From the NCBI GenBank assembly GCA_018433835.1, contig JAHDQM010000020.1:25922-89921 (forward strand): a stretch of DNA of 64,000 bases. Direction: 5' to 3'. The position numbers and the translations under genes were made by a program. This document shows, piece after piece, positions 9,788 to 63,855 of this stretch. Origin of the DNA: Methanoculleus sp. (GTDB lineage Archaea; Halobacteriota; Methanomicrobia; Methanomicrobiales; Methanoculleaceae). Position 1 is the stretch's first letter, and every line of letters starts with the position of its first letter. The notes below the pieces were generated by a model. It saw only the letters and a list, made by a program, of their open reading frames with translations. It had not been told where the DNA came from and made no database searches.

Positions 9788-12076
9788 TTACGAGATGGGA
9801 TCTCTACCGAAGTTCACTTCATATATAGAAACACGTTTTGTAAAATTACTCATCTCAGATGGTACTCTATCAACTGCGCCACCTAATACCTTGTATGGGA
9901 CTGTAAATCTGGCAACCTCAATAAAATCAATATCTGGAGCCTCGTTTGAAATAGAAACTACGTCAAATTCAGACACATAGATTTTCTTGTTCTCGCCATA
10001 TAATTTAACAGACGTGTTATTGATAGATCTTAGGATCGCAATAATATTGGCGCCATTCGCATCATCAATAAATAATACATTTTTTCCATAAATATATTTC
10101 ATCGGACTCGCTAAGATACGGCCTGGCGCTGTAAGTCTGTCAGGGCCATCTCCAAATATGATAATATCGTCATCTACTAACTGGGAAATTTCAGTAGTAG
10201 TATCTGGTATACCATCCCACATTTTCTGCTTCAATAGTGAATCGTCTTGAGCGTAACCAAATATAACTATGGATACGACAACTATGACAATCAATTGTTG
10301 AAATATTTTTTTCTGAGTTAATAGCTCACTAATATAATATATGCAATAACCAGCACAGATCATGAGGGTGGGGATTACAATGGGAAGATAACGCCTCAAC
10401 ATCAACGGAACATACGGGCTATGGTTTATGTTGATGGTATAAATGATAAAGAACAGCAAAAAGAGCCCCAAAAGATAATATGCACTTCTTTTATGATCCT
10501 TCCCTCGTGTTAGGTTATTAATTAAAATTATCGAACCCACTACCCCGCAAATCAATATAAGAGGTGATAAATACCATGCTAATTTGCTCAAACTGTACGC
10601 ATAAGATGTGTAAGCCGCATCCAGTGGCCGAATAACCCAATTATAAATTACAAAAATGGCTATTAAGAAAGATATAATATAGCCCAATGTTGGTTTATTC
10701 CGGTGGATATATCGATCCACATCCTCAATCATATCATTCAGATTTTGCCTTAGGTCATTAACTAGTATTATTTTTTGGCCAAAGCCAACACTTGTCTTTA
10801 GTTTCTCAAAATTGATGTATACTAAAAAGATGCAACAAATCACGATAAGGAGATGTAAACTGGTCTTCGCCAGATCAGCGACAATTGGACCCGAGATAAC
10901 CTTGCCAATTACACCCCTCAATATACCTTCAGTATAGATGGAAGAAAATTGTATAATATACAAGGTATTGAGTATCGATGATATGAGAAACGCATTCGCG
11001 AAAATCATATCGTGATCTTTCATATTGTTAGAGAGCTTTAAATAGAAGTAGTACCCAAAAAAGGGTATAAGTAGGATATAGGAATCGATTCGAACCAACA
11101 GGGACAGCGAAAGAGTTATGGCCGAAATGACGGCAAACTTATTATTCAAGCATTCTTTGTAGATAATAAATGCAAACATCCCACTGAATATAAGGAATTG
11201 AACCATTACTTCAGTATACGGAGTGCGCGAAAAGAACAATTGAACAAAATTAAGGCTCAATAGCAAAGAACCAATAAAAGCAACATTCCAGTTAGTTATC
11301 TGTCGAGCAACCATGAAAACACTGAGAATCCCCATCATACCAAAAAACGGTGCGACATAAGTAACTCCCAAAATTCCAAAAACCGAATAAAATATTGCAA
11401 TCCACACTGGAAACAGGTGATACAATAATGGAATAAACTCACCTTTTTTTGGATCAATAGGTGCGAAACAATGAGTTCCATGAGTGGCAAAAACAGCATC
11501 TTGGTTAACTGCACTGATTAGCGGGTCGTGTACAACAATTGATCCGGTTCTGGCTATATTAACGCCATTGTTCATGTAGACGCCACAATCCCACGTACCA
11601 ATTAACCATTCGGCGGGGGGAAATAGAGCTAACAGCACCAATGCTAATCCAAAAATTGAAATGAGAGATATTGCCTCAGCATTGAAGATAGGTTTTGTAA
11701 ATGACGTCCATCTGACCTCTTTAATCAAACATAGTGTAGCACAGAATCCTAAAAGAAGCAAACTAAGATTTAATAGTGAGAAAATGCCTGCCCCCGCAAG
11801 GAGTATACCAAAGACTGAGCTTATTACTATACTTATCAGAACTTGAACAAAAACGATCTCGGAAAACCTAAAATTGACTTCTTTTAGTGCAAAAGCATTG
11901 ACGCATAATAACCCGGGAATAAAAAATATTAGTGGCAATGAGATCAGTATTTTAAAAAAAATTAAGAAGGCATCAAGTTGATGCGACAGGAAAAAATATA
12001 AGAACAAAAAGAATATGCCTCCTAGCATAATTCCGAGACTACCAAAACTATTTTTCACCGAACGGATCTTAGCCAC
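9788..12076 (-). CDS. Large polytopic membrane protein, GT-C-like glycosyltransferase candidate
   Basis: A 762-residue protein with about 14-16 hydrophobic segments through residue ~570 and a soluble C-terminal part of ~150 residues. After the fourth or fifth segment a loop contains WDCGVYMNNGVNIARTGSIV, resembling the first external loop of GT-C (PMT/ArnT/GT39-like) transferases, where a D-containing motif binds a lipid-linked sugar. A role in transferring sugars from polyprenyl-phosphate donors fits the surrounding glycan genes. The gene is strikingly AT-rich compared with genes before 9 kb and after 17 kb, which points to recent transfer. The exact substrate is unknown, and it could be a dolichyl-phosphate-mannose mannosyltransferase-like protein of another class. 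Confidence 0.65.
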   Translation of the reverse strand: MAKIRSVKNSFGSLGIMLGGIFFLFLYFFLSHQLDAFLIFFKILISLPLIFFIPGLLCVNAFALKEVNFRFSEIVFVQVLISIVISSVFGILLAGAGIFSLLNLSLLLLGFCATLCLIKEVRWTSFTKPIFNAEAISLISIFGLALVLLALFPPAEWLIGTWDCGVYMNNGVNIARTGSIVVHDPLISAVNQDAVFATHGTHCFAPIDPKKGEFIPLLYHLFPVWIAIFYSVFGILGVTYVAPFFGMMGILSVFMVARQITNWNVAFIGSLLLSLNFVQLFFSRTPYTEVMVQFLIFSGMFAFIIYKECLNNKFAVISAITLSLSLLVRIDSYILLIPFFGYYFYLKLSNNMKDHDMIFANAFLISSILNTLYIIQFSSIYTEGILRGVIGKVISGPIVADLAKTSLHLLIVICCIFLVYINFEKLKTSVGFGQKIILVNDLRQNLNDMIEDVDRYIHRNKPTLGYIISFLIAIFVIYNWVIRPLDAAYTSYAYSLSKLAWYLSPLILICGVVGSIILINNLTRGKDHKRSAYYLLGLFLLFFIIYTININHSPYVPLMLRRYLPIVIPTLMICAGYCIYYISELLTQKKIFQQLIVIVVVSIVIFGYAQDDSLLKQKMWDGIPDTTTEISQLVDDDIIIFGDGPDRLTAPGRILASPMKYIYGKNVLFIDDANGANIIAILRSINNTSVKLYGENKKIYVSEFDVVSISNEAPDIDFIEVARFTVPYKVLGGAVDRVPSEMSNFTKRVSIYEVNFGRDPIS

Positions 12077-53100: not shown

Positions 53101-53802
53101 TCACTCATTAAACTCGTCCTCAGTCATCGGGTACCAGTAATCTTCATTTTCAGGATACTCGAACGTGTGATCGGAGCGAGCATACCAGTGTGCATATGGC
53201 GATCCAGTTGTTTCGTAGTTTATCACCGTATCAGACGATTGCTGATTAGTTTCCGTCTGATCGAAGCGAATGTAACCCTCTTCCCAGACCCGTCCTCTGA
53301 CGCCGATTGTATCTATGTCGAAAGGACGCCCGGCATCCTGATCTCTGGACGTCGAATAGTGATCCGAATAAATGTCAGTGTATCTGTGCCATATGTTTGT
53401 CCCGGCTGTCCAATCATAGGTCACGTCTCTACTATTAAAAATCGAATTCGCCAGTGCATGAGAGTGCCTGACAATTTCCATTCCTTCCGGATCTCCTATC
53501 GTGGGAGACTCAATCTGATCGGCTGCCTCTTCCGCACTCACCGCCGGCACCACCACGCTCACCAACATTAGGATCAGGCCGGGGTATTTCCCGACCAGTT
53601 CCGGGCCCGGGCGCTCCGGCTCTTTCGCAACGACCGGCTTGTTGTACATCGACATGTCCCGTGGTCCGGCCCAGCCGTCGATGGTATCGAGCCAGCTCGT
53701 ATTCCCCCCGGTAGAGGGCGCCGGAGCGGCGGTGGAGACCGCCGGGACGAAGAACGCCGCGATGAGCGCCGATGCCAGCAGTTGCGCTAAGACTCTCTGC
53801 AT
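53101..53802 (-). CDS. Chimeric secreted protein with two signal-peptide-like segments
   Basis: A 233-residue protein. Residues 1-25 (MQRVLAQLLASALIAAFFVP then AVSTA) are a signal peptide, followed by SWLDTIDGWAGPRDMSMYNK, which matches the start of the transglutaminase-like protein at 57997 (GWLDTFDQWVEPRDMSKY). At about residue 75 a second signal-peptide core appears (LILMLVSVVVPAVSAEEAAD), followed by an unrelated ~140-residue domain. This looks like a recombination product of two secreted-protein genes. The first signal would still export the protein. No known domain follows. Confidence 0.65.
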   Translation of the reverse strand: MQRVLAQLLASALIAAFFVPAVSTAAPAPSTGGNTSWLDTIDGWAGPRDMSMYNKPVVAKEPERPGPELVGKYPGLILMLVSVVVPAVSAEEAADQIESPTIGDPEGMEIVRHSHALANSIFNSRDVTYDWTAGTNIWHRYTDIYSDHYSTSRDQDAGRPFDIDTIGVRGRVWEEGYIRFDQTETNQQSSDTVINYETTGSPYAHWYARSDHTFEYPENEDYWYPMTEDEFNE

Positions 53803-55825: not shown

Positions 55826-56683
55826 CTACCCCCGTCGCCGGCACAGGACAAAACCCATCCCGACACCAAGAATCGCGAAGACCGCCCCAAACCCCGGCGT
55901 CGTCGTCCGGATCGACTGCCCGGGCGCCAGATCCGAGGGGACCTGCACGACGTCGGCCTTCTGACCGGCTCGAACGGTAATCTCCCAGACGATCCGGTCA
56001 CCACCGTAGACTTTCAGCACGATGTTCTCGACGCGGGCGCCCGGGGGCTGTCCGGAGAGGGCCTGCGCCTCCGCTTCGGCTCTCCCGACCGTGAGGTTCT
56101 CTTCCGAGACGTATGTTGTAGAGACAATCTCTCCTCCTGAGAGGAGGACAATGTACTCCGTGAACACGCCGGTATCGTGGATGAAATAGACCTGCGCCCG
56201 CGAAGGCTTGGCCGTAACCTCCTCATAGCGGTTCGGAGATTGATTCTCGATGTACGACCGCAGCTCTGCATCGTTGCTGAGCGCCGGGTACTTCGCAAAG
56301 ATCTCCGGGAACCGGAGCTCTGCGGCCAGGGGCATCGCCTCGTCGCAGCCGATAATCCAGATGCGTTCAATAGACTGTTCGCCGCTGCGCTCGTCGGTTA
56401 TCCGGTTTAAGTAGACGAGCTGTTCTTCGCAGGCGTTCACCGGCACGACGTACACGTATTTGTGGGTGTGATTGTAAATACCCTCACGCCATTTTATCTC
56501 TCCGTGCTCGGCTATGAACGCGGTGATCGTTTCGTTGGTCTTCGCGTTCGGATGGACCAGAAACAGGATGCCCGTCTGATTTCCCTGTCCGGGGAGAGGC
56601 GTCACGACTGCACCTGCGGGTATGCTGCAGACGATCACCGCAATGGTGAGACCGAGCACCAGGAAGGCGATATGTTTCGTCAT
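55826..56683 (-). CDS. PGF-CTERM surface-anchored protein
   Basis: A 285-residue protein with an N-terminal signal peptide (LVLGLTIAVIVCSIPAGAVV) and a C-terminal TTPGFGAVFAILGVGMGFVL plus CRRRG. That tripartite tail (PGF, hydrophobic helix, Arg cluster) is the PGF-CTERM sorting signal, processed by archaeosortase A with lipid attachment. The middle domain has no known match, with some N-x-T sites. It may be an S-layer-associated protein. Confidence 0.8.
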   Translation of the reverse strand: MTKHIAFLVLGLTIAVIVCSIPAGAVVTPLPGQGNQTGILFLVHPNAKTNETITAFIAEHGEIKWREGIYNHTHKYVYVVPVNACEEQLVYLNRITDERSGEQSIERIWIIGCDEAMPLAAELRFPEIFAKYPALSNDAELRSYIENQSPNRYEEVTAKPSRAQVYFIHDTGVFTEYIVLLSGGEIVSTTYVSEENLTVGRAEAEAQALSGQPPGARVENIVLKVYGGDRIVWEITVRAGQKADVVQVPSDLAPGQSIRTTTPGFGAVFAILGVGMGFVLCRRRG

Positions 56684-56692
56684 AAAAATAGG

Positions 56693-57997
56693 TTAATTGT
56701 ACCTCGGAACCTCCCCGAGGAAAACCTGTGTTCTGAAATCTTCATACCTGAGAATACCGTCGCCGGTCGGGTCGTTTGGGTCCTGTGTGTAATAGGAGTC
56801 ATCGGCGTCACCGTAGACGGTAATGCTGATGTGAGTGTTTCCTTCCGCCCTGTAAACCTGGGGATTGTCAAACACATTCAATGTCGGATCCGAGTGGATC
56901 CAGGTATTTCCATTCCACGATTCTGCAATAGCATGCCCCGCTATATTACCAGATGGCAGCCTCATGGTGAACGATAGGAACCGCGTCGGGATGCCCAGTG
57001 CCCGGGTGAAGGCGGTATACAGGGTTCCATACTCATCGCAGACTCCCATGTATTTCCCGTCGATGGAAGATGGATGGTCCATCATGTACAGGTCGGAGAA
57101 TATATATTCAAGATACGGGTCTTCGTATGTATAATTCATGGCCCCATTAACGTACTGCATTATCGCGTGCGCAGACTGATATGGCTCTGTCGTACCATCA
57201 GCCGCCTGCGCTGCTTCGAGTAGCACTCCATATCCCTCACTGAACGGGAAATGATACAGATCGCTCGTTTCGAGGTTTTCTCCGCCGTCAGGATCGAGGA
57301 GATGCGACGCATCGTTGTTGTATTTCTCTATGGCATCGATCGGCATTCTTGCCATCCATGACGTAAGGCCGGTCGGATCGACTCTGATCTCGACCGCCAT
57401 CGGTTTTATCCCGATGGAACTATACTGTGCGAGAACCTCAAATGGAACCGTCACAGTGAGATCCGCCCCCGCTGCAAGATCCGAAAAGGGCACACCACAC
57501 CCGTACCCATCCTCAAGCGACCAGAGGATGACCATCCCGCTCGCTGCAGAAGAAGCGTAGTTATGGATCGTTATCTCGTGGTAGACAAACGTGTCCTGTG
57601 TCCAGTACCAGGAGATGGTTCCCTGGGTCATTCTCACGTCGGGCATTAAATCCCTGGTGCTGGGGTCGCTGCTTTCGGCTTGTAGCGTCAATGATACTTC
57701 ACCAGGTGAGGTTGGAACCACGTCTGCATCGATTACCTGGAATTCTGCTTCTCTCTTTGGATCCAGAATAATTACTCCGGGGTGCTGCCGTGCGATCTCC
57801 TCAGTGATCGGAACCCTCTGTGGGGTTTCAATGACCGGAGTGTACTTCGACATATCTCTCGGCTCAACCCACTGGTCGAACGTATCGAGCCAGCCCCTTG
57901 ATTCACTCTCTGCACTCACAGCAGGCACCATCGTTCCGCTCACCAGCAACGCTGCCAGGAGCACGGAAAGTACCCGCATTTCGATTTTTCCTTTCAT
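56693..57997 (-). CDS. Secreted transglutaminase-like protein
   Basis: A 434-residue protein, ATG 57997 with GGAGGTTGA just upstream. Signal peptide MRVLSVLLAALLVSGTMVPA then VSAE, followed by a conserved WLDTFDQWVEPRDMSKY linker. The C-terminal half is a transglutaminase/protease fold: GVCDEYGTLYTAFTRALGIP (Cys ~317), GHAIAESWNG (His ~352), WIHSDPT (Asp ~369). All three catalytic residues are present. It may cross-link or cleave cell-surface proteins. It is governed by the shared leader/operator region at 58090-58250. Confidence 0.85.
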   Translation of the reverse strand: MKGKIEMRVLSVLLAALLVSGTMVPAVSAESESRGWLDTFDQWVEPRDMSKYTPVIETPQRVPITEEIARQHPGVIILDPKREAEFQVIDADVVPTSPGEVSLTLQAESSDPSTRDLMPDVRMTQGTISWYWTQDTFVYHEITIHNYASSAASGMVILWSLEDGYGCGVPFSDLAAGADLTVTVPFEVLAQYSSIGIKPMAVEIRVDPTGLTSWMARMPIDAIEKYNNDASHLLDPDGGENLETSDLYHFPFSEGYGVLLEAAQAADGTTEPYQSAHAIMQYVNGAMNYTYEDPYLEYIFSDLYMMDHPSSIDGKYMGVCDEYGTLYTAFTRALGIPTRFLSFTMRLPSGNIAGHAIAESWNGNTWIHSDPTLNVFDNPQVYRAEGNTHISITVYGDADDSYYTQDPNDPTGDGILRYEDFRTQVFLGEVPRYN

Positions 57998-58089
57998 GCC
58001 GTCAACCTCCAGGGTTGTTCAAGCTCCCGGAGGCGGACGAGGCACGCCTTCAAGTACTGAAAGAGCACATATCCCAATAGCCTCCGGGC

Positions 58090-58250
58090 TTGCGGGGCGC
58101 GTCATCCGGAGCGTCAACCGGGGATGGGCGACCCCCGCACACAAACGGGTACCGCACGCGGCACCCGATGCGATTCTGGGTCTTCAGAACATATAAAATC
58201 AGCAGTCATCGTTCGGCTGGAACCGAACGCACCATAAACCTTCTTATAGT
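58090..58250 (-). promoter_or_regulatory. Shared operator, promoter and structured leader, copy A
   Basis: On the minus strand: inverted repeat CGTTCGG-N6-CCGAACG at 58210-58229, then TATA box ATTTTATAT (58191-58199) ten bases on, then a leader (expected RNA start about 58169) holding GGGT-CCGC/GCGG-ACCC and a nested TGCGGGG/CCCCGCA hairpin (58091-58139). It is almost identical to 60515-60673 and close to 63718-63855. Confidence 0.7.
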
Positions 58251-58630
58251 AGGGAGGTCCCCCGGTAGTGCGCTCCCGTCCACCGGGGCACGCGCCAAAA
58301 AGGACGTGCCTTCTGAACCGGGCCTGCCGGATCGGTTTCACACCCGGAAGCAACTGCAACAGGCCGGGAACCGGAACCACGCCGCTGATGAAGAATGCAA
58401 CTCAGGAAGACGAACTGCCTCCTGCCTCTTCATGGTATCAGGCCGTCGTCAATCCCTGCGAGGGGGGATAGTGGCCAACGGGTCGCGTTGTCGCTTCCTG
58501 TGCCGAGCAGAGTGCGAGCGACCTTGCGCTACGAAGCGCATAAATCCAGAGTATACCCCCCCATACCACACAGTTCTATTCACGTTCTCCCCACAACTTC
58601 GCCAGCGAAGGTTGACAGTTCAAAGTCAGA
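58251..58630. other. Intergenic sequence without a supported gene
   Basis: Frames are open but unlike proteins. A GGGCCTGCCGGA-TCGGTT-CAC stretch near 58319 recurs near 53881. A short repeat-like segment at about 58497-58548 (GTGCGAGCGACC, TTGCGCTACGAAGCGCAT) vaguely recalls the dispersed hairpin family. Confidence 0.3.
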
Positions 58631-59329
58631 TCAGTCAAGTATCCCCTCCATATCGATGATAGAGTACGACGGATAGAGATAGAAAAACGTCGTGCTGTTG
58701 TAGATCATCACCATCCTCTCGTTCCGGTCATCGAAGACGTGCCACCATCCTTCCATCTTGTCCCTCGCCTGATGGTAGTCCCCGGGACAAGGACCTGAAG
58801 CGGGCCCTCCGGTCCAGACCTCGGCATCACAGTAACCTCCGGCGGTACGTCCCTCCTGTTCATCGACTCCGATGTAGAACGACAGCCCCTCTTTTTGGAA
58901 TTCCACGGCGGCAGAGCCCCGAGCGCGGTCTTTGTCATCGCTCATCTCGTTGATCGATGCGACGTCCCGCCTATCGAGCTGTACCGGGTCCACGATGCCC
59001 CAGGACTGTAACGGCTCGGTGATCGATGTAACGTTCCACCCGTTCTCGATCAGGAGCCGCACACGCGGATCGCTCTGGAGAATCGAGGAGATTAGCGTGA
59101 CATTCGGGCTGAAGTTCGGTCCGCCCCTGATCTCGACCTGTGAGAGGTCGACAGATATTCCAGTACCCTCGGTAGCCGTGGAAGCGGGTGTAAATGAGTC
59201 GTTCCTCGGCAATCCGTCCGTGGTGCCGTACTGCATGCTGTCATCCCCGACGGCGCCTTGGGTATCGATACAACCGCAAGACGCCAGCAAGATCGTGAAA
59301 ACGAAAAAAAGGGAGCATTCGGTTTTCAT
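58631..59329 (-). CDS. Hypothetical lipoprotein
   Basis: A 232-residue protein with signal and lipobox (FFVFTILLASCGC), then a low-complexity Ser/Thr-rich stretch, then a ~160-residue domain (LISSILQSDPRVRLLIENGW). No known match. Its own promoter is not evident; the preceding gene at 59340-60476 ends ten bases upstream, so the two are probably co-transcribed. Confidence 0.65.
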   Translation of the reverse strand: MKTECSLFFVFTILLASCGCIDTQGAVGDDSMQYGTTDGLPRNDSFTPASTATEGTGISVDLSQVEIRGGPNFSPNVTLISSILQSDPRVRLLIENGWNVTSITEPLQSWGIVDPVQLDRRDVASINEMSDDKDRARGSAAVEFQKEGLSFYIGVDEQEGRTAGGYCDAEVWTGGPASGPCPGDYHQARDKMEGWWHVFDDRNERMVMIYNSTTFFYLYPSYSIIDMEGILD

Positions 59330-59339
59330 TCGATCACCG

Positions 59340-60476
59340 CTAGTTCGCAGTATGGAGTTTTACCTGGTATGGGTTTTGTATTATTTCGACAAAACATTGG
59401 CCTATTATCTCCTGGGGGGCGAACGACGAGTACCACGGGTTCAGATATACATTTGTCATGGGTATGCCATATGCTTTGTACGACATACTGTAAAAGTTCG
59501 TGTCACCCGGCACATCGGTATTGTCGTCGACATACCAGCCTTCCAGCGCACATGCCACCAGGCAATTGCTCTGGGGCTGAATACTGTCTGGTGTGACTAC
59601 ACTACTCTGACCTGTTGTGCAGTCTTCCAGTGAGACAATCCAGAGACTCCTAACACCATCCCAATAGATGCGCCCTTTCATTGTATCCCCCGTGTTCAAC
59701 ACAATAGTCGACCCGATAAGGTCAGGGCCGTCAGGATCGCACCCCCATGCCTGTCCTTCCCATCTTTGCTGTTGTGGATTATACCGGATTACGGGCTGGA
59801 GCAAGTAGCGGCTGGGTGTATCCCCCTGAATAACGTTGAACAGATATATCATCTCACCAACCTCAAGTGAAGGTGGAGCGGACGGGACTGTCCAGTACGC
59901 GGTGTACTCCGTAATGCCGTTAAGATAATCTTCTGCCGATTCCAGCCAGTCACGACCTGTCCAACCCCGGGTTGATTCTGGACACGGTTTAGAGGTAGTA
60001 TCCTCGTTGATGACCCGGAGGATCAGTTCCCCTGCGGGATTAAGGACGAATATGGTGTCTCCCCTGTAGTATGCTCTTGAGTCATCCGGTATCTGGTGCA
60101 CCCAGGTGCAGGGCTTCTCAACGCCAGAGGGTGTGGGTATTTTTTCGGAACGTTCATCACTGACTGAAAGCAACTGGTCGCCATCCTTGTCGAAGACCCG
60201 CGTTATCCCGTCCGCCGCGTGGACGACGATCGAACCGAACGGTATCCCGTATATACCGCTCTCTGCCTTGCCCGGTTCCTCCTGAAGACTTAACATCCCG
60301 GAGATTGCGATCGTCTCAATCGATCTGTCCATCTTCAGTTCAGGAATCGTATACTGCTCAAGATCGACCCCCGTAGTCGTCTGTGCCTCTGCGCTCACAG
60401 CCGGCACCGCAACCACACTCACCAGCATTACCGCCAGGAGCGTGGAGAATGCCCGCATTCCAATCTTTCCATTCAT
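59340..60476 (-). CDS. Hypothetical secreted protein
   Basis: A 378-residue protein, GGAGGAAAGAAC before the ATG. Signal peptide MRAFSTLLAVMLVSVVAVPA then VSAE is almost the same as in the genes at 57997 and 53802. The mature part contains ITEYTAYWTVPSAPPSLEVG then EMIYLFNVIQ, a pattern like that of secreted beta-sandwich proteins with a 'VPxxP ... FLFNGIQ' block, but no catalytic residues can be named. Controlled by leader copy B. Confidence 0.65.
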   Translation of the reverse strand: MNGKIGMRAFSTLLAVMLVSVVAVPAVSAEAQTTTGVDLEQYTIPELKMDRSIETIAISGMLSLQEEPGKAESGIYGIPFGSIVVHAADGITRVFDKDGDQLLSVSDERSEKIPTPSGVEKPCTWVHQIPDDSRAYYRGDTIFVLNPAGELILRVINEDTTSKPCPESTRGWTGRDWLESAEDYLNGITEYTAYWTVPSAPPSLEVGEMIYLFNVIQGDTPSRYLLQPVIRYNPQQQRWEGQAWGCDPDGPDLIGSTIVLNTGDTMKGRIYWDGVRSLWIVSLEDCTTGQSSVVTPDSIQPQSNCLVACALEGWYVDDNTDVPGDTNFYSMSYKAYGIPMTNVYLNPWYSSFAPQEIIGQCFVEIIQNPYQVKLHTAN

Positions 60477-60514
60477 GTTCTTTCCTCCGATAGTGTCCCG
60501 GAGGCGGGAGGGAG

Positions 60515-60673
60515 CTTGCGGGGCGCGTCATCCGGTCGTCAACCGGGGATGGGCGACCCCCGCACACAAACGGGTACCGCACGCGGCACCCGATGCGATT
60601 CTGGGTCTTCAGAACATATAAAATCAGCAGGCATCGTTCGGCTGGAACCGAACGCACCATAAACCTTCTTATG
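60515..60673 (-). promoter_or_regulatory. Shared operator, promoter and structured leader, copy B
   Basis: Inverted repeat CGTTCGG-N6-CCGAACG at 60635-60654, TATA box at 60616-60624, and the same leader hairpins as copy A. Expected RNA start about 60594, giving a leader near 118 bases before ATG 60476. Confidence 0.7.
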
Positions 60674-60899
60674 GCGGGACAATGGTCCCCGCCCCTGCCA
60701 CGCTCGTCGAACCTCCCCCCACGGAACCGGGCACCTTCGCAGTTGTTCCCGGCAAGGACCGCCAAGAGTTATTCCCCCAGGAGGCCGGGTAACTAAAGCT
60801 GAGGCGTGGATTGTATTCTGCCAATCGGATGGGTCCGTTTTGAACAGACGAGGTACAGTTACATGTCAGGACGTAGCCGAATCGCCAGATACGGGTCGA
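60674..60899. other. Intergenic sequence without a supported gene
   Basis: A 36-codon proline-rich plus-strand frame (60682-60792) is open, but I see no promoter or ribosome binding site for it. The rest is noncoding. Confidence 0.25.
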
Positions 60900-61072
60900 T
60901 CAGAACCCGGAGTTTCCCCCGGTCACGCGAAGCGTCCCGGGCCCCGCAACCACCCCCAGCCGCGTGATAATCATATTCTCCGGCTTCACCGGTGTCCAGC
61001 AATAGTTACCCGACAATCCTCCAGCAGAGCAGTCACCATTTGTCCGGGACCTCACCCGATATAGAGGCACCA
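60900..61072 (-). pseudogene. Possible frameshifted C-terminal part of the gene at 61073
   Basis: Directly after the stop of the small membrane protein, another minus-strand frame reads MVPLYRVRSRTNGDCSAGGL, then NYCWTPVKPENMIITRLGVV and ends at 60900. It looks protein-like and may be the original tail of the gene at 61073-61501, cut off by a one-base change. Weak evidence. Confidence 0.25.
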
Positions 61073-61501
61073 TTACGTGGCGGGCACCGCATAGTTGCTC
61101 GTAATCATGAGAGCCTGAACGTCGCGCTCCGCCCGGACGGAGATTGCAAGAGAATGGCAACGCGCAATGGAAAACGCAAAGACCTCCGGATCTTCACCGT
61201 CGACCGAAATTTCAAAGTGGTACTCCCTCCCGTCATTCTTGATAGACGATGTTACATCCCCATCCGCCTCAAGTCGATATACTTCCGAACAGACAGGAAC
61301 ACGAATGCGAGTGGCGTTGGCGTCAAACACCGTTACGTTAACTTCGTGCGGCACATCATCGGTGTTAAAGACATGAAAAAGGTGTGGACTGCAGGGCGGA
61401 GTACCCTGCTGTTCCTGTCCGGTTCCGCAGAGAATGACCGTACCGGCCACAATCAGAATACCGACCACAGCAAGAACCGTCATCAACGTTGCTACCCGCA
61501 T
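61073..61501 (-). CDS. Small membrane-anchored hypothetical protein
   Basis: A 142-residue protein. ATG 61501 is seven bases after GAGGTGA; ATG 61507 is too close to it. One N-terminal helix (ATLMTVLAVVGILIVAGTVI) is followed by a beta-rich external part with several Cys and N-x-T sites. It begins 15 bases after the metalloprotease remnant ends, so they share a transcript. No known domain; possibly truncated at the C-terminus (see 60900-61072). Confidence 0.6.
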   Translation of the reverse strand: MRVATLMTVLAVVGILIVAGTVILCGTGQEQQGTPPCSPHLFHVFNTDDVPHEVNVTVFDANATRIRVPVCSEVYRLEADGDVTSSIKNDGREYHFEISVDGEDPEVFAFSIARCHSLAISVRAERDVQALMITSNYAVPAT

Positions 61502-61516
61502 CTCCATTTCACCTCG

Positions 61517-61839
61517 TCACTGGTATCCGGCGACGACCCCTTTCGTCTCACTGATCCTCCGGGCATTGTCATGTGATGCATCTCCATGCCGGGTGTCGCA
61601 CGAGTACTCAAGGCACATGTCGTTCCCCATGAAACTCGACCAGAGAGCTGTGTACCGATTATAAACGAACCACTCCGTCCAATGATATGCTTTTGCATAC
61701 GACGGATAGGGTGCTGTTGAGTCTTCGTGCCCTGCGCCGAAAAGGTGTCCGATCTCGTGTGCGGCGTTGATACATCGATGCGAGAATGTAGCCTGATAAC
61801 TGACCAGATATACATTGATCTCGCACTGCGGGAAGAGTG
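61517..61839 (-). pseudogene. 5'-truncated metzincin-type metalloprotease remnant
   Basis: The frame has a stop just upstream and no start codon before the zinc site. It reads FSHRCINAAHEIGHLFGAGH, the HExxHxxGxxH zinc motif, then GDASHDNARRISETKGVVAG to a TGA at 61517. The tail aligns with the end of the intact protein at 62318 (GDATHDNARAIREAKALVAG). The N-terminal two-thirds is gone, so it is not functional. Confidence 0.7.
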
Positions 61840-61851
61840 GAAATTAGAGAT

Positions 61852-62283
61852 TTAATCCACGTAGATGGTCCCAACCCTATAATAATGCCCTTCATATTCG
61901 AAATACCTCTTCTTACCGGTCGTATTGTCAATAACATATGTATCGATGGTCCGTTGCGTTATTTTTTCGGGGTACTCCACCTCACCCACACGGCGTAGGT
62001 CTCCTTCTTTGTATGATGGTCCCGACGGGTACGGTTCGCTCACCAGCAACACTTCTTCAAGTACGGGAAATTCCTGAATGTTCTGTTCATCAAGATAGAT
62101 AATCGTGCCCCCCAGGGCCTTCTGCTCTGTAATTTCGTGCACCTCAAGCCGATCGGGCGGGACGGTCAGAGAGAGGAAATAGGGAAAGCCGACGATACAG
62201 ATCAACGGGAGAACAATCAACAGACCCAACAATACGACAACTAACCTGTAGCGGCGCACTACCGCAGAAAGTGATTGTACCAT
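61852..62283 (-). CDS. Hypothetical membrane protein
   Basis: A 143-residue protein from ATG 62283, GGAGGTTTAAGA before it. One helix near the N-terminus (YRLVVVLLGLLIVLPLICIV), then an external domain of ~100 residues (RLEVHEITEQKALGGTIIYL, YFEYEGHYYRVGTIYVD). It lies 34 bases after the metalloprotease gene and may be its partner or inhibitor; this is inference. Confidence 0.6.
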   Translation of the reverse strand: MVQSLSAVVRRYRLVVVLLGLLIVLPLICIVGFPYFLSLTVPPDRLEVHEITEQKALGGTIIYLDEQNIQEFPVLEEVLLVSEPYPSGPSYKEGDLRRVGEVEYPEKITQRTIDTYVIDNTTGKKRYFEYEGHYYRVGTIYVD

Positions 62284-62317
62284 TCTTAAACCTCCATAAA
62301 AATTTGTAGGGATCGGA

Positions 62318-63631
62318 TCACACATAACCTGCAACCAACGCTTTTGCTTCACGAATGGCTCTTGCGTTGTCATGAGTGGCATCCCCATGATAATCGTCGG
62401 ATGAAAACTCATAGCAATTAAGATGTTCGAAGAAATAACTCCACATCACTGTATGAGTAAGGCCGCCGTTAAATGCATACGCCTGATTATATCCGCCCGT
62501 GCCCTCATGATGAGCATCGAAGTTATGGCCAATCTCGTGAATGCTTACACACCTGCGGCCATGAGCCGTACCCCAATAACACAGATCGTAAAAATCCGTC
62601 ACCATCTGTGCCCATGAGTGCCTTCCATCGTTTGTAAATCCATCTGCCAGTCCAATTGGAGTGCCGGTCATATCGTAACCGCCCAGGTATAAACCGAGGT
62701 CCGATGACCACAGGTCAAGATCGGAAGTTGGATACACAGCTTTGAACGCGCCAAGAGGATTTGATATGACTTCGGGACGGCTTGAGAGTTGGTATCGCCT
62801 AGAATCATGATAATCCATGACACAAAGAGCGACCTGAATATCGTCCCTCCCAAATTGTTGATTTGCTGTTGCGATTATGTCCTGTGCTGTCGCCTTCCAG
62901 TTTGTTTCATCTTGATAAAACTGGTTGTCAGTTACTACAAGGATATTGGCAGTGTAATACTGGTCAGTACCCTCAACCTGCAGCCCGGCCCATCGGTCAG
63001 GACCACTTGCCGAACCATTGTTCCCGGGTACTACAGGCCCATAGTCAATCACAGCAGGTTTTTCCTGACACTTGACGTCTTCGGAGCTGTAGATGATATG
63101 CAGAGGCGACAGTGACTTTTCCGCACGTGCTCGCGGTTCGACCGGTGTGATCCAGAAGGTCTTGTTGCCCAGCGTTATACTTCCGACAAGGACATTTTCC
63201 CCGGTCGTGAGAAGGACACTGCTCTCTTCCACACCCGGTATCGACCCTTCGTATGAATCGATTCCATCGTCGAGATTTTCGAACGTCATTCGATTCAAAG
63301 CCACACTGTAATCTTTCCCGTGGATCTGGATGGAGAGTACACCCTGCATCTCCCTGTTCAATGCAGCGTGATCAAACGTCACGAGATCGTACCGAGTAAT
63401 AATTTCAGGGATCTTAAGATCTTCAGGTTCAACAATTCCGGAAGACTCCAAGTCAGATACAGATGTAGCGTCCTTAACGAGAACATTCATGCATTCTCCG
63501 ATGATAACAGCGGGCCTATTGACACTCTCAGCACTTTCCATCGCGTCTTGAGCGCTGACACCCGGGATAATCAGCATTACTGCGATCAGGCATGTCAGGA
63601 GATAGCCCCAGTAATTTAGTCTGGTTCTCAT
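62318..63631 (-). CDS. Secreted metzincin-like zinc metalloprotease
   Basis: A 437-residue protein from ATG 63631 with GGAGGAAAACAA before it. Signal peptide YLLTCLIAVMLIIPGVSA. An N-terminal ~170-residue prodomain-like part precedes the catalytic domain (YYTANILVVTDNQFYQDETN onward). The zinc site is HEIGHNFDAHH (~residue 364), HExxHxxxxxH with Asp where metzincins have Gly, followed by a conserved-Met candidate (THTVMWSYFF) for the Met-turn. It would be secreted and degrade or process extracellular proteins. Leader copy C lies upstream. Confidence 0.82.
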   Translation of the reverse strand: MRTRLNYWGYLLTCLIAVMLIIPGVSAQDAMESAESVNRPAVIIGECMNVLVKDATSVSDLESSGIVEPEDLKIPEIITRYDLVTFDHAALNREMQGVLSIQIHGKDYSVALNRMTFENLDDGIDSYEGSIPGVEESSVLLTTGENVLVGSITLGNKTFWITPVEPRARAEKSLSPLHIIYSSEDVKCQEKPAVIDYGPVVPGNNGSASGPDRWAGLQVEGTDQYYTANILVVTDNQFYQDETNWKATAQDIIATANQQFGRDDIQVALCVMDYHDSRRYQLSSRPEVISNPLGAFKAVYPTSDLDLWSSDLGLYLGGYDMTGTPIGLADGFTNDGRHSWAQMVTDFYDLCYWGTAHGRRCVSIHEIGHNFDAHHEGTGGYNQAYAFNGGLTHTVMWSYFFEHLNCYEFSSDDYHGDATHDNARAIREAKALVAGYV

Positions 63632-63717
63632 TTTGTTTTCCTCCAAGATACTCCCGGAGGCCAGGAGAGGCACACGTATAAGTACGCAGAACGCTTACGT
63701 TCCCTTTGCCTCCGGGC

Positions 63718-63855
63718 ATGCGGGGTTCTTCATCCGGTCGTCAACCGGGGATGGGCGACCCCCGCACACGAGCGGGTACCGCACACGGCACCCAATGCGC
63801 TTCTGGGTCGTTAGAAGATATAAAATCGGCAGTCATCGTTCGGTTTTTTCCGAAT
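63718..63855 (-). promoter_or_regulatory. Shared operator, promoter and structured leader, copy C
   Basis: Inverted repeat TTCGG-TTTTTT-CCGAA at 63839-63854 (minus-strand reading has A-rich spacer), TATA ATTTTATAT at 63818-63826, and the same nested hairpin at about 63719-63767, with a changed internal loop. Expected RNA start about 63796, leader about 165 bases. Confidence 0.65.

Follow-up and report, generated by a model that had tools for sequence, protein, structure and literature searches.

A modular 5′ leader with a candidate Shine-Dalgarno gate precedes unrelated, apparently secreted-protein genes of methanogens

Introduction

In Shine-Dalgarno (SD)-sequestering translational riboswitches, a general class of regulatory leaders, an anti-SD segment has two exclusive partners; the erm and SecM leaders are examples of leader-peptide attenuation, and the ompA leader is an example of a 5′ leader that stabilizes its mRNA. 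Only a small number of broadly distributed cis-regulatory RNAs have, to our knowledge, been described in archaea. Here, we describe a leader that occurs three times in a stretch of 64,000 nucleotides (nt) of Methanoculleus sp. (contig JAHDQM010000020.1, positions 25,922 to 89,921; the window), each time upstream of a gene for a different, apparently secreted protein, and that recurs before unrelated genes in many methanogens. It combines two hairpins with a third domain in which an anti-SD segment could pair either with an upstream SD-like arm or with the SD of the gene itself.

Among archaea, a long 5′ untranslated region (UTR) with an antisense partner has been described in Methanosarcina mazei. 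The start of MM2442, a gene of unknown function, was mapped there by rapid amplification of cDNA ends (RACE) 184 nt upstream of the predicted start codon, the small RNA sRNA162 overlaps this 5′ UTR in antisense over its first 65 nt, and binding of the two was demonstrated by gel shift and footprinting (PMC3510493, Jaeger et al. 2012). The sections of that paper drawn on here also note two small open reading frames (ORFs) in the 5′ UTR and report that no ribosome-binding site was seen before the predicted start (PMC3510493). For Methanolobus psychrophilus, the sections used here of a further study give 5′ UTRs longer than 50 nt for 51% of mRNAs and a prediction that stem-loops mask ribosome-binding sites (PMC5378194).

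Results

Architecture of the leader and its three copies in the window

The leader probably acts as a translational switch: it is modular, has a predicted RNA fold and stands before unrelated, apparently secreted-protein genes of many methanogens. Hairpin P1, at or within a few nt of the transcription start (+1), would be followed by hairpin P2 and then by the gating domain P3. The order in P3 is the near-invariant CCCGGAGGC after P2 (the 5′ arm, which is SD-like; CCCUGAGGC in many Methanosarcina and Methanolobus leaders), about 35-55 nt, GCCTCCGG, a short loop and the SD. Pairing of the anti-SD with the upstream arm would leave the SD free and the gene likely on; pairing of the anti-SD with the SD would likely turn the gene off. 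We infer that the two folds interchange in the cell and control translation in this way, with something acting on the P2/P3 region as the trigger of the change.

In the window, a repeat search returned a 136-nt family on the minus strand at 58112 (copy A, the reference), 60537 (copy B, 99% identity) and 63739 (copy C, 82% identity). An earlier note on this DNA had called the leaders of the genes at 57997, 60476 and 63631 nearly identical and their coding sequences unrelated beyond the signal peptide. Both statements hold, the best mutual BLASTP expectation (E) value between mature parts being 0.057-0.066 (A vs B), and Pfam agrees with the products it had proposed. The stems it had named are present as well, as are the altered internal loop of copy C and the altered tip of copy A; on the minus strand, the sense strand of the genes, the tip reads GGU-UGACG-ACC rather than GGT-CGTCA-ACC. 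Missing from its description was the third domain between hairpin and start codon, composed of the 5′ arm CCCGGAGGC, the anti-SD GCCTCCGGG and the SD GGAGG, which is complete in copies A and C and lacks the 5′ arm in copy B. The features, all on the minus strand, are as follows (R1 and R2 are the covariance models described below; aa, amino acids).

57998-58170, minus: copy A, whole predicted leader of about 170 nt before the transglutaminase-like gene; R1 match 58074-58176 (E 4.2e-27), R2 match 57995-58093 (E 2.1e-15)
58212-58227, minus: copy A, inverted repeat TTCGGTTCCAGCCGAA upstream of the TATA-like box, a possible transcription-factor site (exact motif)
58191-58198, minus: copy A, TATA-like box TTTTATAT (motif; near-fixed distance to P1 across leaders)
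58146-58167, minus: copy A, hairpin P1, predicted transcript 5′ end (sequence and fold; compensatory changes in relatives)
58091-58139, minus: copy A, hairpin P2, TGCGGGG/CCCCGCA and CATCC/GGATG (sequence and fold; compensatory changes in relatives)
58080-58088, minus: copy A, P3 5′ arm CCCGGAGGC, SD-like (motif)
58026-58034, minus: copy A, anti-SD segment GCCTCCGGG (motif)
58006-58010, minus: copy A, SD GGAGG (motif)
56693-57997, minus: gene A, transglutaminase-like, signal peptide, 434 aa (Pfam PF01841, Transglut_core, E 9.3e-13)
60477-60595, minus: copy B, whole predicted leader of about 119 nt without the P3 5′ arm; R1 match 60512-60601 (E 1.1e-21), R2 merely E 1.4e-4
60637-60652, minus: copy B, inverted repeat TTCGG-N6-CCGAA upstream of the TATA-like box (motif)
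60616-60623, minus: copy B, TATA-like box (motif)
60571-60592, minus: copy B, hairpin P1 (sequence and fold)
60517-60564, minus: copy B, hairpin P2 (sequence and fold)
60497-60505, minus: copy B, anti-SD GCCTCCGGG, predicted to pair with the SD (minimum-energy fold)
60484-60488, minus: copy B, SD GGAGG (motif)
59340-60476, minus: gene B, function unassigned, signal peptide, 378 aa (no Pfam match at E 0.01)
63632-63797, minus: copy C, whole predicted leader of about 165 nt; R1 match 63702-63803 (E 3.5e-28), R2 match 63629-63721 (E 2.1e-23)
63839-63854, minus: copy C, inverted repeat TTCGGAAAAAACCGAA upstream of the TATA-like box (motif)
63818-63825, minus: copy C, TATA-like box (motif)
63773-63794, minus: copy C, hairpin P1 (sequence and fold)
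63719-63766, minus: copy C, hairpin P2, AAGAA internal-loop variant (sequence and fold)
63708-63716, minus: copy C, P3 5′ arm CCCGGAGGC (motif)
63653-63661, minus: copy C, anti-SD GCCTCCGGG (motif)
63640-63644, minus: copy C, SD GGAGG (motif)
62318-63631, minus: gene C, M12-type metalloprotease (Reprolysin_5), signal peptide, 437 aa (Pfam PF13688, E 4.7e-9)

The anti-SD segment and its two partners

Outside the Methanoculleus family (hereafter the family), the anti-SD and the SD tend to come as matching sets (CCTCA-TGAGG, CCTCG-CGAGG, CCTCT-AGAGG and CCTCC-GGAGG). We compared the base after CCTC in the anti-SD with the base before GAGG in the SD in the 43 usable rows among the 57 outside-family rows of alignment A6, which exclude the family rows L216 and two of L270. 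The two bases were Watson-Crick partners in 29 of 43 rows vs 11.0 expected (0/10000 permutations), with all four pair types represented. The same anti-SD base pairs with the 5′ arm in 34/43 rows, G-U included, vs 21.1 expected (0/10000), and such covariation of one base with both partners is as expected of mutually exclusive helices. After thinning to less than 80% identity, the counts were 16/26 for the SD (1/10000) and 21/26 for the 5′ arm (8/10000); at less than 70%, they were 9/15 (151/10000) and 12/15 (108/10000). Dropping Methanogenium (L281) too left 28/41 and 33/41, respectively. A column scan of A7 also picked out this anti-SD base, alongside many pairs due to chance. The parse into family and outside sequences covered 149 of 181 distinct sequences; the other 32 were dropped for want of a GAGG-type SD or of CCTC, and some of them support the pairing by eye (GTCTCC/GGAGAC in L207, and forms in L204 and L213).

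Among the distinct leaders of the family, 74 of 93 have a perfect stem (5 base pairs or longer) over the SD vs 80 of 331 control genes (60/271 without the loci from L182 on, which were dropped because they hold leaders too). In the 37 °C ensemble, the 5′ arm is paired downstream with a probability above 0.5 in 84/93 family leaders. The two exclusive partners of the anti-SD are thus indicated by covariation outside the family and by complementarity within it, and it is on complementarity, not covariation, that gating rests in Methanoculleus itself.

Promoter and hairpins P1 and P2

Of 117 distinct upstream regions examined, 97 have a TATA-like 8-mer that scores 6 of 8 or more. The distance from its start to the first base that pairs in P1 is 30-31 nt in 75 of these and 28-35 nt in 95. 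Therefore, P1 likely lies near the transcript 5′ end, beginning at +1 or a few nt later as judged from the predicted promoter. In the window, the inverted repeat TTCGG-N6-CCGAA stands 13 nt upstream of every TATA-like box and is possibly a shared transcription-factor site.

Pairing in the hairpins was assessed on named structures with shuffle and slide controls rather than on an RNAalifold consensus. In the 49 aligned sequences, 91.4% of the P1 and P2 cells were paired vs 89.3% in shuffles (0/500 as high), and sliding the structure by 1-3 columns left at most 46.3% paired. The test for compensatory changes gave nine pairs changed on both sides vs 5.0 in shuffles (2/500 as high) and 36 cells vs 14.7 (0/500). 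RNAalifold on alignment A1 returned 14 pairs, P1 among them, and missed most of P2; its failures here and on A6 (see below) are likely due to alignments that put the stems out of register. The sequence of P1 varies among leader types and the hairpin is kept. P2 is almost wholly different in sequence between classes, with a hairpin kept in its place, for example GAUGUUCGUCC with GGACGAACAUC in L187, GGGGUCUGG with CCAGACCCC in L169 and GAAGUUCAAA with UUUGAACUUC in Methanosarcina-type leaders. Folded singly, 14 class examples had z-scores from -0.9 to -5.3.

Distribution across genomes

Copy B has 12 DNA matches in its own genome. The same search matched 31 of 61 genomes, all 31 within the family (37 of the 61), and gave no match in the 24 same-order genomes outside it. 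A covariance model of P1 and P2 (R1), of the kind that the earlier note had advised, was built from 49 of the 88 sequences in A1 (less than 93% identity), which include window copies B and C and not copy A. R1 found the leader in 34 of 40 family genomes (21 times in the Methanoculleus genome itself). In the order it matched 38 of 199 genomes, four of these 38 belonging to other families, and in the class 38 of 232. The model of P3 (R2) was trained on alignment A3, that is, 55 of 65 non-redundant P3 sequences and none from the window, the omitted ten comprising window copy A along with divergent or unusual sequences. It matched 18 of 31 relatives and, with E 1e-5 as the cut-off, 29 of 294 phylum genomes, 17 of them outside the family; family genomes G017 and G029 have R2 matches and no R1 match. 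R2 extends the leader to Methanosarcina, Methanolobus and Methanohalophilus. Alignment A2 holds 150 of 165 matches, and A4 and A5 were excluded from the counts.

A pattern scan of named genome contigs yielded 92 stretches, 34 of them with methanogen titles, including Methanosarcina, Methanolobus, Methanohalophilus, Methanococcoides and Methanogenium. R2 matched 31 of the 80 stretches to which it was applied, namely 29 of 31 methanogen loci and 2 of 49 bacteria-titled ones. The latter two (L231 and L260), titled Syntrophomonadaceae and Cloacimonadota, are possibly misbinned methanogen contigs. The plasmid search gave no match, and the pattern was found in 21 stretches of viral contigs. Five draft contigs (L061, L063, L070, L072 and L079) break off no more than about 120 bases from a leader; repeats that disrupt assembly are the probable cause, and genes at such ends may escape surveys.

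Rfam 15 gave no gathering-level match over the whole window, RF02792 (sRNA162) included. At E-value thresholds, none of the window leaders matched, and one sub-threshold Twister-P5 hit fell outside them at 61831-61880 (plus strand). Six relatives had no Rfam match, and six more loci gave solely sRNA162, in L214 (on the antisense strand) and weakly in L204, and PYLIS elements; PYLIS_5 (pyrrolysine insertion, transposase) lies at L202 15282-15381 (plus strand), inside a cluster of leader-bearing genes. Among the listed matches from the openly licensed literature, no title or displayed abstract described the leader family.

Genes downstream of the leaders

An ORF with an SD-like sequence follows 149 of 164 distinct leader places and starts 58-84 nt past the end of the model in 115 of the 149. 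BLASTP comparison of 142 downstream proteins after residue 32 (E 1e-5) sorted them into 35 clusters, a few of which are probably misread frames. Pfam, run on 30 of the 35 cluster representatives, gave Peptidase_S8, Transglut_core, Peptidase_C39_2 (two clusters), DUF6345 and the PGF-CTERM motif above the cut-off; M12 was below it among the representatives and above it for the gene of window copy C. NCBIfam, run on 10 representatives, gave one halocin-C8-like match, below the cut-off. By a simple hydrophobicity rule, a heuristic, 85 of 91 distinct leader proteins were signal-peptide-like vs 149 of 337 control ORFs of the same loci, a set that includes spurious ORFs; outside the family, 50 of 53 leader proteins were signal-peptide-like. 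A special export signal in the leader RNA, one of the functions that the earlier note had offered, is not needed.

Gene B has a relative, itself leader-bearing, in locus L163 (37% identical). Between genes B and C, the stretch at 61523-61780 (minus) holds what is left of the C-terminus of a second metalloprotease, 44% identical to gene C over 86 aa, and is likely a decayed paralogue. Part of a protein at 53566-53751 (minus) is 43% identical to gene A over 63 aa, with no R1 or R2 match upstream. In locus L080, a leader and signal-peptide start precede a homologue of the PGF-CTERM gene at 55826-56683 of the window, and a similar 24-aa piece remains upstream of the window gene at 56683-56754 (minus), as if a cassette had moved between genes.

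Relation to sRNA162 and MM2442

Three leaders in locus L214 lie antisense to RF02792 matches above the gathering score; the sRNA162 match in L204 is weak. When the 65-nt overlap is transferred to L214, starts fall 26-28 nt after TTATAA. The second L214 copy has a leader of 140 nt to an SD-preceded TTG and of 182 nt to a later in-frame ATG, compared with 184 nt for MM2442. P3 is duplicated in tandem in the other two (about 734-876 and 10270-10412), whose leaders measure at least 242 nt. By analogy, the true start of MM2442 may lie about 42 nt upstream of the predicted one, and its 5′ UTR is likely a member of the leader family, given its position beside sRNA162.

Discussion

The shared architecture of these leaders, their distribution, their association with signal-peptide-like proteins and, outside the family, the covariation of one anti-SD base with both partners can be read from the sequences. 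The earlier note had suggested a cis-regulatory structured RNA, and this is borne out by recurrence across genera before unrelated secreted-protein genes, compensatory changes in P1 and P2, replacement of P2 between classes and the two-partner covariation. Its further term "riboswitch-like" fits in part, in so far as the anti-SD has two mutually exclusive candidate partners; the ligand that the term implies is hypothetical.

Several observations weigh against a switch. The permutation tests ignore kinship, the covariation signal weakens as relatives are thinned, and the test position lacks a Watson-Crick pair in 14 of the 43 sequences from outside the family. There is no covariation signal within the family (85/103 Watson-Crick vs 84.3 expected), because the anti-SD and SD hardly vary there. 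Covariation over the whole of P3 is weak (6 pairs vs 4.7 in shuffles; 114/500 as high), RNAalifold gave no consensus on A6, one class carries CCCGAAGGC and thereby a mismatched P3 arm, and a possible leader-peptide ORF overlaps P3. At 37 °C, pairing of the SD with the preceding region averages 0.19 and exceeds 0.5 in just 15/93 family leaders. As the 5′ arm is mostly paired downstream and the SD rarely paired in these ensembles, the open fold is likely the default one; copy B, without the 5′ arm, is predicted to be closed at its SD.

The main and serious rival, which concerns what drives the switch and which we regard as unlikely, is attenuation by a leader peptide. The SD-like arm would then recruit ribosomes to a short upstream ORF, which is MIALRVLKVCLILPRE-like in leaders of the Methanosarcina type and MYALCVLEGMLRLPPG-like in certain Methanoculleus copies. 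Ribosomes that move or stall on this ORF would open or close the main SD. It owes this rank to start codons and alike peptides that recur. Outside the family, 35 of 55 distinct leaders have an ATG 3-15 nt after the SD-like arm (28 at 7 nt), and 10 more have GTG or TTG; within it, an ATG follows the arm in 58 of 139 R1-found and 8 of 25 further leaders. The upstream peptides are alike across orders, several Methanosarcina-type ones end just past the anti-SD, and the MM2442 5′ UTR has its two small ORFs (PMC3510493, in the sections used). Against these stands a test for synonymous change that is weakly positive in A6, where single-base codon changes are synonymous only a little more often in the proposed frame than in the other two (0.40 vs 0.32 and 0.30). 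In the family the test is not positive, as the proposed frame is not consistently ahead (0.31 vs 0.37 and 0.29). Furthermore, many family copies carry ACG, often with an immediate TAA, as does window copy C (ACG TAA), and some Methanolobus-type copies stop after five codons.

Stabilization of the mRNA, with a 5′-end hairpin and further stems that slow 5′-to-3′ decay and no switching, appears improbable. The predicted promoter position does put a hairpin at the transcript 5′ end, where P1, about 30 nt after the TATA-like box, conserves pairing over sequence, and P2 is likewise free in sequence between classes. Such a function leaves the anti-SD:SD covariation and the near-invariant SD-like arm unexplained, and the predicted fold of the L214 leaders has no separate P1.

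That duplication or gene conversion merely spread a cassette of promoter, leader and signal peptide whose RNA structure has no function of its own was already disfavoured and is very improbable: near-identical stretches with mixed internal-loop variants in neighbouring copies, alike signal-peptide ends and several draft contigs that end at leaders do suggest such events, so that the recent duplication raised by the earlier note may have contributed, but it is insufficient alone for leaders in 34/40 family genomes and in other families of the phylum, with hairpins that survive sequence replacement and show compensatory changes.

Beyond the translational switch itself, we tentatively raise the possibility, speculative at present, that methanogens of at least two orders hold much of their secretome under a common SD toggle (P3) with swappable P2 hairpins as addresses. 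Every address would have a dedicated reader, either an antisense RNA or an RNA-binding protein; sRNA162 may be such a reader in Methanosarcina. If so, different P2 classes in one genome would be separate secretion regulons.

The leader family in itself would join many unrelated methanogen proteins that appear to be secreted (proteases, transglutaminases, bacteriocin-like and unknown ones) in one post-transcriptional regulon. The leader would provide a sequence handle for the remaining secretome, the sRNA162-MM2442 pair would belong to a larger system, and the leader family can be tested in the genetically tractable Methanosarcina.

Among the known systems, sRNA162 and MM2442 share with our leaders a long methanogen 5′ UTR, and the L214 leaders are antisense to RF02792 matches; in the sections drawn on here, the published work treats single targets and does not mention a shared secreted-protein leader, SD gating or the Methanoculleus forms (PMC3510493).

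As in SD-sequestering translational riboswitches, the anti-SD has two mutually exclusive candidate partners. Unlike in those, there is no known ligand and no Rfam match on the leader, and the sensor hairpins differ almost wholly in sequence between classes. With the ermC and secM attenuators the leaders have in common a first SD-like site, a possible short ORF and then a sequesterable SD, whereas many Methanoculleus copies are without a usable start and the frame signal is weak or none. The ompA-type leader corresponds in its hairpin near the predicted transcript 5′ end and in its exported gene product; in contrast to it, the leaders described here precede many unrelated genes and add an SD-gating domain.

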